A stretch of DNA of 64,000 nt, from the NCBI GenBank assembly GCA_021845595.1, contig JAJZVV010000011.1, positions 31,048 to 95,047 on the forward strand, read 5' to 3'. The position numbers were made by a program, and so were the translations under genes. Under the pieces are notes generated by a model. It saw only the letters and a program-made list of their open reading frames with translations, did not search any database and had not been told where the DNA came from. This DNA comes from Pseudomonadota bacterium (GTDB lineage: Bacteria; Pseudomonadota; Alphaproteobacteria; Acetobacterales; Acetobacteraceae). Shown piece by piece: positions 8,013-18,029 of the stretch; position 1 is the first letter of the stretch, and each line of letters opens with the position of its first letter.

Positions 8013-11000
8013 TCAGCCCGGCCGCATGCGCCGCGGCATACCCTGCTCGATTGCCGCGAGAATGGCCTCGCCGACATGTCCGGGATTGTAGAGCGCCGCG
8101 ATCCGCGCCTGCCCGGCGCGGCCGATCGCGCGTGCGGCCGCCTTGTCCTCGTGGACGTGGCGCATATGCGCCGCCGCCTGCTCCACGTCGGCCTCCGCCC
8201 AGCTCTGCCCTTCCGCCCCCGGATACTCGCCCGGCGCCACCGGCACGAGGTGGTAATCGACGACATAGGCGCAGTCCTGGGTGGCGAAGTCGGCGGTGCC
8301 GGAATAGCCGGTGACGATGACCGGCCGGCCGAGCAGCATCGCCTCAGCCGGTCCGCGGCCGAAGCCCTCGGAGCGGTGCAGCGAGACGAAAGCGTCGGCG
8401 GCGGCGATCAGGTCGAACACCGCGGCGCGGTCGAGCACGACGTCGCGCAGCGCGATGCGCGGATCGTCGCAGAGATCGGCGAGCGCCCGCCAGGCCAGCG
8501 GCGTGCTCGCGCCGCCCTGGGTCTTGATCAGGAGCTGCACCGGCTCTTCGCCGGTCGGGAACGCGGTGCGGAAGGCCTGCACCACCGCTTCGGGGTTCTT
8601 GCGGCTGGCGTAGGAGCGGAAATCGAACATGAACAGGAAGACGGTGGCGTCCTCGGGCAGGCCGAGCACCGTGCGGTCGGCACGCGGCTCGTGCGCGGGC
8701 GGCAGCACCGGCATCGGCACCCGGCGCACCGGCCGCAGCCCGGCGTGGGCGAAGGCGTCGCGGGCGAATTCCGTCGCCGCCCAGATTTCGTCGAAAAACG
8801 AGTAGGCGTGGCGCCAGCTCCGTGGCAGCCACTCCAGCTCCCACGCCCAGTAGCCGATGCTGCGCGCCGCGGTGACGCCGTGCTGGCGCAGGAACAGCAC
8901 GTCCTCGACCGCGGTGATGGCGTTGAGGTGGAGGATGTTGGCCTCGAACTCGACCCGCACGCCGGCGGGCAGCGCGGTGCCGTCCGGGCGCAGGATGCTG
9001 CCATCGGCGCGGTCGACCCCGAGCCAGTCGGTGAACGCCACCGCCTCCAGGGCGCGGGCGGTGGCGCGCACATCCTCGCCCCGTCCGGTGCTCTCGCGCC
9101 ACCAGCCGGTGAGCCCGATCCTGGCGCGGTGCACCGGCGCGATCACCGCCGGTTGTGCCAGATCGCGGGCGAACAGCGTGCCGAGCGGGTAGTCCGCGTA
9201 GCTGGAGGCGAAATTCTGCTTGGCCCAAGCCGCCAGCTCGGTCCGCCCGGTTTCGGTGGCGACGTCGAACAGGGCGCGGAGATCCGGGCGCGTATTCCGC
9301 ACCATCTCCAGCGCCACCGGCAGGCCTTCCAGCCGCGGCGAGGGGCCGGCGAGGAACTCGGCCAGGCGCGGATCGAACGCGTCGAGCGTGAGGCCGAGTT
9401 CGCTGAGGCCGCTGGTCACGAGCCAGTGCAGATAGCCGAGCCGCTGGTCCTCGTCGGCGAGCGGAAATGCGCTCTGCACGTCGGCGCGCGTCTCCCACAG
9501 CGCCATCTCCGCGCGGTTGAAGCGGAATCCGAGTACGCTGATATCGGTGAGTTCGGCAAAGTAGCGCCGCAACTCGGCCACCATCGGTGACGGCCAGCGA
9601 TAGGCGCGGGCGGCAAGGAACGCGTACCAGAGCCCATGCGAGAGCCGCGCCGAGCGATCGGTCGGGAAATCCTGCCAGCGGGCGAGATTGGCGCGGTGGG
9701 CCTGCACCTCGCGCGTCAGCAGCATGCCCTCGTTCAGCGGCATGTCGCCATACTGCGCGGCGATGTAGCTGCCCCGGCTGATCTGGGCGACGAAGGCGTC
9801 GGTGAACAGGGCCGGGTCGACGCTGCCCTCGTCGATCGCGGCGGTGATGACCCAGCCGAGGAAGGCGCGCGCCCGCTCCGATCGCGTGAGGTCGAAATGC
9901 GCCTGCAGATCGGGGCGCCGCTCCCAGCTCAGCGCCGCCTGCCGCGGCAGCAGCAGCGCCAACTCGCCCAGCGGCAAGCTGACATCGCCGTGCAGGAGCT
10001 GCAGCGCGTCGCTGGCCGCCCCGGGCCACATCTCCACGGCGAGCGACGGCCATGGCGGTGGGCGGGCGGTGATCAGCGCCGGCGCGCCGGGATCGGCCCC
10101 GCCGCGCAGCGCCCGGGCGGCCGCGATGCTGCGTCCGTCCACGCCCTCGGCCGCCGCATCGCCGCCGAGGAACCAGGTGTAATAGGCGTCGAGCCCGGGT
10201 TCGGTATGGATGTCGAAGACGGTGCGCAGGTCGGCCCGGTCCAGCCAGGTCTGATACATGAACCGGGTCAGCGCGATGCCGCGGGCTGCGGCGGTCTCGT
10301 CCGGCGCGTCGAAAAACCCGGAGGGAACATCGAGCCCGGTCGCCGGGTCCAGCCTTCCCTCGTCGACGGCGCGGACCAGCCAGCGCCGCATCGCCGGCTC
10401 GATCGGCCGGCCATCGGCGAAGCTGCCGAACCCATAGGTCAGGCTTCGCGTCCGCCGCCAGCCGTTGGCGTGCAGCAGGTCACGATAGCGCCGGGCCAGC
10501 GCGGCGGCAGGGGCGGGAACGGCATCGCGGAAGCGGCTCTCGTGGCGCGAGAGCAGTCGCTCGTCGTCGGGCACCAGCCCGCTGAAATGGAAGAAGATCA
10601 GCGGCTCGCCGTTGACCCGCCAGGCGCCGTCTGCGCCGGTTTCCACCATGCGGTGGGCGAGGTTCCAGTAGGCGACGTTGCAGCCGGGGTGGTGCAGTAT
10701 GGCGAGCCGCGGCACGAACGACGGGGCGAGGTCCATCCAGCGCTGGTCGGTGAACATGTGCCGCGCCAGATCGACGCGGCAGTGCAGCCGGCAGCGTTCG
10801 CCCCACCAGAGGAGCAGGCGCCTGGCATCGGCGTCGTCGCGCATCGCCGCGAAGCCCAGATTGTACACGCCCGACTGCAGGATGGTGAGATCGGAGGGTT
10901 CCAGCCCGTCATCGAGCGGCGCGGAGAGGTGCGGGGTGAGCACGACGCTGTGCTGGGCGAGCGGATCGAGCGCGGGAGCGAGCGGGGCCAGTACCAGGAT

Positions 11001-11393
11001 GTCCGGGTCGAGATAGCAGGCCTCGGCGAAGCCGAGGGTCTCGAACATGTGGCGGAAGGCGAACGGCTTGAGCGCGGTGTTGAACTCCAGCACGCTGTAG
11101 AGCCGCTGCATGGCGGGCAGCGTCGCGATGCCGAGCGTCTCGCAGCCGATCACCGTCGCGGCGAGGTCGAGCCCGGCGAAACTGCGCGGCGTGTCGGCGA
11201 GAATGATGAAGCGCGCGGCGTCCGGCTCGGCGGCGCGGACCGACTGCATCAGCGTCGCCGCGTAGGCGATGTAGTTGGCCGACGCGATGGTGAAGATGGC
11301 CCGGCGGGGCGCTGCCCGGCTGCTCCGGCGCCGAGCGCCCGCCGGGCGAACGGCGCCCCGCTTCTCCGCCGTGCTCGCCCTGACGTTCGCCAT
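8013..11393 (-). CDS. Large two-domain glycosyltransferase (GT-A N-terminal, GT4 C-terminal)
   Basis: About 1126 aa from the ATG at 11393; an upstream in-frame TTG at 11438 would add 15 Arg-rich residues. The N-terminal domain (about 30-290) looks like a GT-A fold with a DxD site in ACYLDPDILVL (D129/D131). The C-terminal domain (about 820-1115) is a group-1/GT4 transferase with a nucleotide-binding motif HRSEGFGRGPAEAM. The middle (about 375-725) carries four degenerate copies of a WxxRxDLxxxFD...W module. It probably builds a cell-surface or exopolysaccharide glycan in the cytoplasm. The adjacent, divergent exporter genes could share that role (inference). Acceptor and sugar donor cannot be read from the sequence. 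Confidence 0.85.
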   Translation of the reverse strand: MANVRASTAEKRGAVRPAGARRRSSRAAPRRAIFTIASANYIAYAATLMQSVRAAEPDAARFIILADTPRSFAGLDLAATVIGCETLGIATLPAMQRLYSVLEFNTALKPFAFRHMFETLGFAEACYLDPDILVLAPLAPALDPLAQHSVVLTPHLSAPLDDGLEPSDLTILQSGVYNLGFAAMRDDADARRLLLWWGERCRLHCRVDLARHMFTDQRWMDLAPSFVPRLAILHHPGCNVAYWNLAHRMVETGADGAWRVNGEPLIFFHFSGLVPDDERLLSRHESRFRDAVPAPAAALARRYRDLLHANGWRRTRSLTYGFGSFADGRPIEPAMRRWLVRAVDEGRLDPATGLDVPSGFFDAPDETAAARGIALTRFMYQTWLDRADLRTVFDIHTEPGLDAYYTWFLGGDAAAEGVDGRSIAAARALRGGADPGAPALITARPPPWPSLAVEMWPGAASDALQLLHGDVSLPLGELALLLPRQAALSWERRPDLQAHFDLTRSERARAFLGWVITAAIDEGSVDPALFTDAFVAQISRGSYIAAQYGDMPLNEGMLLTREVQAHRANLARWQDFPTDRSARLSHGLWYAFLAARAYRWPSPMVAELRRYFAELTDISVLGFRFNRAEMALWETRADVQSAFPLADEDQRLGYLHWLVTSGLSELGLTLDAFDPRLAEFLAGPSPRLEGLPVALEMVRNTRPDLRALFDVATETGRTELAAWAKQNFASSYADYPLGTLFARDLAQPAVIAPVHRARIGLTGWWRESTGRGEDVRATARALEAVAFTDWLGVDRADGSILRPDGTALPAGVRVEFEANILHLNAITAVEDVLFLRQHGVTAARSIGYWAWELEWLPRSWRHAYSFFDEIWAATEFARDAFAHAGLRPVRRVPMPVLPPAHEPRADRTVLGLPEDATVFLFMFDFRSYASRKNPEAVVQAFRTAFPTGEEPVQLLIKTQGGASTPLAWRALADLCDDPRIALRDVVLDRAAVFDLIAAADAFVSLHRSEGFGRGPAEAMLLGRPVIVTGYSGTADFATQDCAYVVDYHLVPVAPGEYPGAEGQSWAEADVEQAAAHMRHVHEDKAAARAIGRAGQARIAALYNPGHVGEAILAAIEQGMPRRMRPG

Positions 11394-15528: not shown

Positions 15529-17895
15529 TCAAGCGGCGTCCGGGCCGTGGGTCAGAACCCAGCCGGCGGGGCGCTCGAGCAGGCAGAGCTCGAGCAGCGC
15601 CGGCGTTGCCGCGGCCCAGCCGGGCAGACGCAGCAGGCCGCGGCCGTCGCTCCAGCGCCAGCGCTTCGCGCCGTCGTGCTCGGGTGCATGGAACCCCGGC
15701 CCGAACACGACACTGTCCAGGTCGAGCGCGCGGCCGTTGACGACGAGGCCGCGGACGCCGACGCCGAGGGCGCGGACATCCTCCTCCGCCGCATCGAGCC
15801 CGGCGGGCACGAAGTCGGCCGAACCCAGCGTCACCTGCGCGGTGCCGGCCGGGAGCAGGAAGCTGCGCACCGCCGCGCGCACCCGCGCCGGGCGGAGCCG
15901 GCGCGCCGAGCCGGGCCATTCGAGCCACGGCTCCGCGCCAGGCGCCGGCCGATAGCCGAGCGCCGGCAGCCGCGCCAGCAGCGCCCGCTTGACCGCGGCC
16001 AGCGCCGGCCCGGTCGTGACCAGCGGCGCGCACGCATCGCGCGCCCACGAACGGCGCGGGCGCCGCGCCAGCGTCGCGAACGGCCGCGGCGCCGTGGCCG
16101 CGTTGCCGAAGCTGGCGCGGTTGCCGGTATCGAGATAGCTCTCGACCGCGAGCCCCTCGGCGAGAATGACGTCGTGGCTGGCGAGTTCGACGTGGAAATA
16201 CTCGACGGCGGCCCGCCGCACCGTGGCGATCGAAGCCCCGTTCGCCAGGTAGCGGACAGGGACCAGCGCGCCGGCCGCGAACACGGCGTGGTCGGGCGAG
16301 AGGAACAGATCGCGCTCCGGCAGCGCGGCGCCGAACGCGCCGGCGCGCACCCGCACCGGCCAGACGGTGGCGGGCTGCGGATGGCCCGCGCAGTCCACCT
16401 GGCGCCGGCCGATCCAGACCACCTCGCGCAGGTCGCCGTGTGCGGTGCGCACGCGCATGCCCGGCCGCAGCATCTCGACGGCGAGCGGCCCGTCCGCGGT
16501 GGCGATGCGCGTGCCGCGGGCGAAGCAGGCGGTGATGTCGGTGCCGCCGCCGGGCGCGGCGCTGAGGAGGAAATCGCCGCTGTGGTACGGGCCGGCGATG
16601 CGCAGCTGCGCCTGCACCACGCCGGCCTCGCTCAGCGTCAGCGTGCCAGCGGCATAGGCCTGCTGCTCGGCCGCGCCGCCTGCGACAGTGACGAGACGGA
16701 TCGTGTCGCCGACGGTGAAATTCTCGATCAGACCGTTCGTCGCCAGCGCCTGCGAGACATCGAGCCGGCCGCCGAAACCCGGGCCGAACAGGATGGTCTG
16801 CGACGCGCCCACGCTCTCGCGCAGCGCCAGCGTCGCGCCGGCGTCGACCAGCAGCCGGCCGGTTCCGGCGACCGGGCTGCCGATGATGAGGTCGTGCCGG
16901 CTCTCGATCAGCCCGTCATTGCCGAGGGTCGGGCCGGCGGCGCCGCCGAGATCGATCGTCGACGGTGCGAGGCCGGTGGCATCGATCTGCCCGGCGGCCT
17001 CATTGGTGAGGGCGAGCGGGGCGCCGTTGCCGCCGATGGTGAAGACGCCGTCGATGATGTTGCTGACGTTGAGCAGCGCGGCCGGCGCGGTGCCGGTGGG
17101 ATCCGTCTCGATCATGCCGCCGGCGCCGAGGCCGATGATGCCGCCGCCGGTGAGCGTCACGCTGTCGCCGGCCGCGATCTCGATCAGCCCGCCCGACGGG
17201 CCGCCGGCCGAGAGCACCCCGGCATTGTCGATGCGGCCATTCAGTTCGAGGTTGAATGCGCCGGCGCCGCCGATGGTCGTGCCGGCGGTGATCGTCACCG
17301 GCATGGCGCTGCCGTCGAGCGTCGTCGCGGCGACGGGTGCGATGATCGCGCCGCCAAGAGCAGTTTCGAGTGTGCCGCCGCTGACATCGACCAGATCAAG
17401 CGTGACGACCGCGCCCGGGCCGATCGCGGCGATCGTTCCGACCGCGGCGCCGATGAAATTCTCGATGCTGGAATTGTCGATCAGCAGCCCGCCGCTGCCG
17501 GTCGCCTCGATCAGTCCGGCATTGTCGACGATCTCCGGAAATGTGAGCCCGAGCACGAGGGGCCCGGCGCCGTTGCCATCGATGATGCCGCCCGACTGGT
17601 TGACGATCGCGGACAGCGGCGCCTGCTGCGAAAGGGAGATGATCCCGGCGCCCTCGATGGTTCCGTTGACGTTAGCCAGTGTCACGGCGCCGTGGTCCGG
17701 GCGGCCGTTCCCGATCGTGCTGTGGAGGAAATAGGATCCGTCGAGCAGAATCGTGCCGCCATTGTCGAGCGTGGCGTTCCCCGTCAGTGCCAGGCTGGCG
17801 GGCTGGCGCTGGGTGCCATCGATCTCGATGGTCTCGTAGGCGATGACCCCTGCGAGGTCGAGCGTTGATCCGGCCGCGACGATCGTCGAGGACAT
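15529..17895 (-). CDS. Hint-domain protein with beta-helix N-terminal region
   Basis: A 788-aa protein. Residues 1-450 are Gly/Ala/Ile-rich repeats of the form I(D/E)NAGLIEATG or GTIEGAGIISL, as in right-handed beta-helices of autotransporter-like proteins. A Hint (hedgehog/intein-type) domain starts at C457 in TDITACFARGTRIATADGPLAVEMLRPGM and runs to about 595, with the LSPDHAVF block. A C-terminal region (600-788) has no motif I recognise. Hint domains of this type (Hint_2) probably self-cleave at the Cys; the catalytic Cys and the SPDH histidine are present. No classical signal peptide is seen. ATG 17895 follows an AGGAGA site. Surface or extracellular location is inference. Confidence 0.85.
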   Translation of the reverse strand: MSSTIVAAGSTLDLAGVIAYETIEIDGTQRQPASLALTGNATLDNGGTILLDGSYFLHSTIGNGRPDHGAVTLANVNGTIEGAGIISLSQQAPLSAIVNQSGGIIDGNGAGPLVLGLTFPEIVDNAGLIEATGSGGLLIDNSSIENFIGAAVGTIAAIGPGAVVTLDLVDVSGGTLETALGGAIIAPVAATTLDGSAMPVTITAGTTIGGAGAFNLELNGRIDNAGVLSAGGPSGGLIEIAAGDSVTLTGGGIIGLGAGGMIETDPTGTAPAALLNVSNIIDGVFTIGGNGAPLALTNEAAGQIDATGLAPSTIDLGGAAGPTLGNDGLIESRHDLIIGSPVAGTGRLLVDAGATLALRESVGASQTILFGPGFGGRLDVSQALATNGLIENFTVGDTIRLVTVAGGAAEQQAYAAGTLTLSEAGVVQAQLRIAGPYHSGDFLLSAAPGGGTDITACFARGTRIATADGPLAVEMLRPGMRVRTAHGDLREVVWIGRRQVDCAGHPQPATVWPVRVRAGAFGAALPERDLFLSPDHAVFAAGALVPVRYLANGASIATVRRAAVEYFHVELASHDVILAEGLAVESYLDTGNRASFGNAATAPRPFATLARRPRRSWARDACAPLVTTGPALAAVKRALLARLPALGYRPAPGAEPWLEWPGSARRLRPARVRAAVRSFLLPAGTAQVTLGSADFVPAGLDAAEEDVRALGVGVRGLVVNGRALDLDSVVFGPGFHAPEHDGAKRWRWSDGRGLLRLPGWAAATPALLELCLLERPAGWVLTHGPDAA

Positions 17896-18029
17896 GGCGG
17901 GTCTCCTGGCAGACGGCGCGGCAGGTTCTGTCGGGAAGCCCGGCGTGCGACCGTTTCCTTGCCGTGGAGATACCATTCCGCCCCGACGCACGCACGCGTA
18001 TTCTGTTTCGCCACCGCGCAGGAGCCCCG
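17896..18029. promoter_or_regulatory. Divergent promoter region, Hint protein / VIT transporter
   Basis: 134 bp between two divergently transcribed genes, so both promoters must lie here or overlap the gene starts. The ribosome-binding sites are clear on each side (AGGAGA for the Hint gene, CAGGAG for the VIT gene). No operator palindrome stood out. Confidence 0.5.

Follow-up and report, generated by a model that had tools for sequence, protein, structure and literature searches.

The stretch of DNA that we analyzed (64,000 nucleotides of an Acetobacteraceae contig, here called the window) carries on its minus strand a gene for a 1126-residue glycosyltransferase with two catalytic domains joined by a linker. 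The genome measures 3.6 Mb in 50 contigs; the gene is on contig C11 and has no second copy elsewhere in it. The nearest named relatives are Acetobacteraceae metagenome assemblies, and no membrane segment was found in the protein. Its gene is isolated: cox15 lies on one side and an HlyD/FtsX/ABC efflux operon on the other, and the window shows no glycan cluster. Gene order is conserved solely within the genus; beyond it, the orthologues share no neighbor gene and are surrounded by unrelated genes and one GT2, and for this reason we rejected the neighborhood as a clue to function. Elsewhere in the window (15529-17991, minus strand), an 820-residue protein begins with a long repetitive region, which is followed by a Hint_2 domain (PF13403, E 3.4e-44), and, at 77-81% within the genus, is more divergent than most neighboring genes. 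The features of the glycosyltransferase are listed below by window position, with bit scores from the independent profile described further on.

8013..11393, minus strand: gene of the two-domain giant glycosyltransferase (1126 residues by translation, ATG at 11393)
10467..11306, minus strand: N-terminal GT-A type domain, GT8-like, residues 30-309 (PDB profile matches and PF01501 matches of homologues)
10146..10280, minus strand: module 1, residues 372-416 (33.7 bits; AlphaFold2 helices 377-385, 387-392, 398-409; single-copy counterpart in relatives)
9945..9986, minus strand: beta-hairpin before module 2, residues 470-483 (AlphaFold2 secondary structure)
9804..9944, minus strand: module 2, residues 484-530 (30.1 bits; AlphaFold2 helices 484-492, 494-499, 505-515)
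9552..9743, minus strand: segment X between modules 2 and 3, residues 551-614 (in-register alignment without statistical support)
9516..9551, minus strand: beta-hairpin before module 3, residues 615-626 (AlphaFold2 secondary structure)
9342..9515, minus strand: module 3 with tail, residues 627-684 (38.1 bits; AlphaFold2 helices 627-635, 637-642, 648-666)
9198..9332, minus strand: module 4, residues 688-732 (22.1 bits; AlphaFold2 helices 693-701, 703-708, 714-731)
8049..9125, minus strand: C-terminal GT4 (GT-B) domain, residues 757-1115 (Pfam and Foldseek)
10259-10167, 9935-9852, 9503-9423 and 9314-9225, minus strand: pattern sites named by an earlier sequence-only reading (R-x-D-[LV]-x3-F matches)

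The top PDB matches of a profile of the N-terminal domain (30 homologues) were GT8 structures (3tzt and LgtC 1g9r, E 0.012-0.04), and 6 of the 30 homologues weakly matched PF01501 (Glyco_transf_8, best E 1.1e-4). Its D-x-D metal-binding motif is an invariant D-P-D in the 30 homologues. By these profile matches, the domain is probably a remote relative of the GT8 family (LgtC, PF01501), from which it differs in that the window protein's own domain lies below Pfam detection, with no match, and in having as C-terminal cap a module without a PDB sequence relative. The C-terminal domain belongs to GT4 (GT-B) by both profile and fold: it passes the Pfam cut-off for PF20706, PF13692 and PF00534, and the top Foldseek match of the full-length model was 3oy2 (E 1e-11), alongside many GT4/GT-B structures. 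OGT and SPINDLY also appear among the GT-B matches of the full model, but their rmsd of 20-31 limits any match to the GT-B part, and we discarded the resemblance.

The sequence-only reading had proposed that a pattern of about 30 residues recurs four times in the linker. The motif R-x-D-[LV]-x3-F occurs exactly four times in the protein (residues 386, 493, 636 and 702); 20,000 composition-preserving shuffles of the linker never gave four matches (mean 0.03). Because this motif was picked after seeing the sequence, we added two independent tests. Profile-profile comparison of orthologue sub-alignments linked all six module pairs over 63-68 columns (E 1.5e-15 to 2.1e-5), against E >= 0.011 and probability <2% for the controls (the GT-A and GT4 domains, the hinge that precedes module 1, and segment X). 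An independent profile, restricted to modules from proteins that do not belong to the window's orthologue group, matched the window protein at exactly four places (375-410, 488-527, 625-669 and 697-723) with the scores listed above, the best of 5,000 shuffles reaching 8.3 bits. All three lines of evidence bear out the four copies at the four named places. The proposed unit length was too short: the core spans about 45-50 residues, or about 68 with its tail, and modules 2 and 3 add a preceding beta-hairpin. Steps between copies are irregular (107, 143 and 66 residues). Segment X was considered as a fifth copy and rejected, since residues 565-598 align in register but score -4.2 bits and its profile-profile comparison was negative; this conserved segment (9552-9743, minus strand) is possibly an eroded copy. 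A PsV_CP_C Pfam match there covers about 15 residues below cut-off and is due to chance.

The modules share the consensus [LVI]-[TP]-R-x-M-x2-[LV]-W-x2-R-P-D-L-Q-x2-F-[DP]-L, followed by G-R-x2-F-x2-W on a long helix. In each, AlphaFold2 predicts a helix of 9 residues, a one-residue break, a helix of 6, a short loop and a helix of 11-18. These models come from small alignments of 10-11 sequences: the full protein (10 sequences) reached pLDDT 70.8 overall (about 80-93 over most of the module region) and pTM 0.45, and the linker alone (residues 350-748, 11 sequences) pLDDT 86.0 and pTM 0.72, with five models at 83-86. The linker is thus modeled with a repeated fold, the outcome on which the sequence-only reading had staked its module; the low pTM of the full protein means that the relative placement of the two glycosyltransferase domains is not given by the model. 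Conserved positions are W12, R15, D17, L18, F22, F33 and W36, the last present in all 83 modules having a residue at that position. On the predicted helices, W12, W36, L18, F22 and F33 would share single faces with other hydrophobic residues. From this spacing, as of a buried core with helix caps, we infer structural residues, probably buried, rather than an exposed sugar-binding platform. Conservation among orthologues is 62-85% in the core and 31-48% outside it, a comparison that is partly circular as core positions were chosen from the same alignment.

Searches for known relatives of the module returned nothing above the Pfam/NCBIfam cut-off (TPR, HEAT and carbohydrate-binding families included), the remaining Pfam matches being at chance level. 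No PDB-sequence relative of the module profile was found; its matches to 4ztx (E 0.17, 27 residues) and tubulins (E>1) are chance. Foldseek of the linker, another check that had been proposed, gave nothing significant against the PDB (best E 0.92, probability 0.05) or a viral model library, with many generic alpha-solenoids among the weak, non-significant matches. We found no paper on the module in the open literature, a coverage that omits most subscription journals.

The module is nonetheless found in other proteins. An iterated search within the fetched loci yielded 86 modules in 39 open frames, and each tested module-bearing frame also has a GT8-like and/or GT4 domain. The architectures, with locus labels, are as follows.

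GT8-like domain, one module: L043, L045, L047, L049, L050, L030
GT8-like domain, one module, GT4: L015-L023, L026, L029, L044, L051, L053, L060
GT8-like domain, two modules, GT4: L104, L105
GT8-like domain, four modules, GT4: the window protein and its orthologues
GT8-like domain, six modules, GT4: L038, seen again as L107
Two to four modules, GT4, without a GT8-like domain: L103, L102, L057, L059, L048, L041, L058

Tandem sets of two to four copies ahead of GT4 occur in other Acetobacteraceae, in Azospirillaceae and in one Methylococcaceae protein, and Citrobacter and Pandoraea plasmid glycosyltransferases carry a weak single copy at the equivalent position after the GT8-like domain. The two-module frames of L104 and L105 (1117 and 1228 residues) are diverged, come from other Acetobacteraceae and have an intermediate copy number. 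The module was present in at least 38 of 200 sampled Acetobacteraceae genomes and at least 11 of 398 Pseudomonadota, lower bounds because the initial pass scored a limited number of candidates. The distance from the GT8-like domain to the first module is 56-71 residues in nearly all architectures, and 36-47 in three short, diverged proteins (L030, L049 and L050). Of 16 shorter relatives that we sampled (L015-L030), 14 have a single module, the exceptions being L024 and L028. Its place after the GT8-like domain there indicates that module 1 is the family's ordinary C-terminal cap and modules 2-4 an expansion. The earlier statement that neither glycosyltransferase domain explains the repeat accordingly fails for module 1. 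One locus, L033, is titled Terriglobia bacterium, probably wrongly, as L004, of identical sequence, belongs to a genome assigned to the same family as the window.

All 9 full-length orthologues keep tandem copies, one of them six, and orthologues down to 49% identity keep four copies at equivalent places with core residues retained, so the pattern persists in close and distant homologues alike. In a further orthologue (L040:7012-10191), the GT-A, linker and GT4 pieces lie in different frames, through a broken gene or assembly errors. Modules at the same position in different orthologues are 44-62% identical, and those at different positions 19-34%; positional counterparts being closer than neighbors, the array is old and its copies have been maintained individually. 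A further duplication in L038 covers a block corresponding to modules 3-4; at 47% and 56% identity to its sources, the new block is too diverged for an assembly artefact. Conservation among orthologues is 60% in module 1, 61% in the catalytic domains, 43-50% in modules 2-4 and 32-45% in loops and tails. Evolutionary rates follow suit: module 1 is as slow as the catalytic domains, modules 2-4 are faster, and loops and tails are mostly fastest.

Most plausibly, and with slightly better than even confidence, the helical repeat is a structural connector that fixes how far apart the two catalytic domains lie and how they are oriented. Under this proposal, an all-helical module that usually occurs once, capping a GT8-like GT-A domain at its C-terminal end, would have been duplicated to four copies in the window lineage and later to six in one relative. 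The array would then act as a rigid helical connector between the GT8-like and GT4 active sites, both in one cytoplasmic polypeptide making a surface glycan. A connector is favored by the confidently predicted linker fold, whose helix pattern recurs from copy to copy, by core-focused conservation with buried-face spacing, and by a copy number that ranges from one to six, in each case alongside a GT8-like and/or GT4 domain. On Azospirillum plasmids, module-bearing glycosyltransferases adjoin gmd, rfbABCD and mannose-1-phosphate guanylyltransferase genes, which point to a surface polysaccharide. Against the proposal stand the 43-50% identity in modules 2-4, more than a mere spacer needs; the single module with which most related two-domain glycosyltransferases manage; and the lack of a glycan cluster near the window gene.

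The sequence-only reading had offered spacing and binding as alternatives, and sequence by itself does not separate the two; of these, the buried-face helical spacing of conserved residues and the variable copy number better support a spacer. We consider it unlikely that the modules build a synthase complex by docking onto a membrane surface or onto partners such as other transferases, a flippase or ABC transporter, or a chain-length regulator. Protein binding is common among helical repeats, modules 2-4 show position-specific conservation, and the alpha-solenoids among the Foldseek matches would fit, but those matches are not significant and the orthologues lack a conserved neighbor gene. LgtC and other GT8 enzymes use their C-terminal parts for membrane attachment, which favors membrane docking; against it, the net charge per module is -6 to -1, acidic and not basic, and, as noted, the protein has no membrane segment. 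A little less likely again is that each module binds carbohydrate, holding the growing glycan or acceptor so that tandem copies pass the chain between active sites. The two tryptophans and the R-x-D pair conserved in the module, better conservation than in most loops, and association with glycosyltransferase domains in every tested frame would suit such a role, but the conserved side chains appear core-like, copies share only 13-30% with each other outside the core, and the missing Pfam and PDB relatives mean that no known carbohydrate-binding family is involved. That copies 2-4 expanded neutrally from the GT8-like cap and do nothing themselves seems very improbable: copy number does differ between relatives (1, 2, 3, 4 and 6) and modules 2-4 do outpace the catalytic domains, but the four retained positions in the full-length orthologues, and the arrays that other bacterial families have ahead of GT4 in proteins lacking a GT8-like domain, argue against it.

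The closest functional parallel to the favored connector is found in the O-antigen synthases WbdD and Klebsiella O12 WbbB, which have coiled-coil molecular rulers (PMC11231755). In both cases, a helical region lies between catalytic modules of a glycan-assembling enzyme, and here too it would set their distance. The window linker differs in being a tandem array of compact three-helix modules, in which AlphaFold2 gives helices of 6-18 residues and no extended coiled coil; WbdD and WbbB join a terminator and a polymerase, whereas the window array joins GT8-like and GT4 domains, with any length control putative. Helical repeats attached to a glycosyltransferase are also known from Klebsiella ORF7-O4, with its TPR-like helical bundle (PMC11231755), and from TPR-GT41 O-GlcNAc transferases. 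Unlike those, the module is a three-helix unit built around a W/RxDL/F/W core, and it was matched by no TPR model.

Tentatively, the modules may constitute an undescribed helical repeat family that arose from the GT8-like cap, of which bacteria add or remove whole units (1 to 6); such changes might adjust how far apart two glycosyltransferase active sites lie, making the array a ruler of compact modules, unlike coiled-coil rulers and TPRs. With the module, a stretch of many bacterial glycosyltransferases that had no annotation gains a definable, testable domain, with a clear expansion series of 1, 2, 3, 4 and 6. If copy number sets active-site distance, the series would provide a natural set of linker lengths for studying coordination in two-site glycan synthases and a rigid connector for enzyme engineering.

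Beside a module-bearing glycosyltransferase on Azospirillum sp. B510 plasmid pAB510f lies a 1698-residue GT4-annotated protein (L100:11781-16877), most of which is a long array of about 40-residue HPLFDPxxY...NPLLHYL repeats. It is likewise a glycosyltransferase with a long array of short repeats, its HPLFD..Y unit being unrelated in sequence to the window module.
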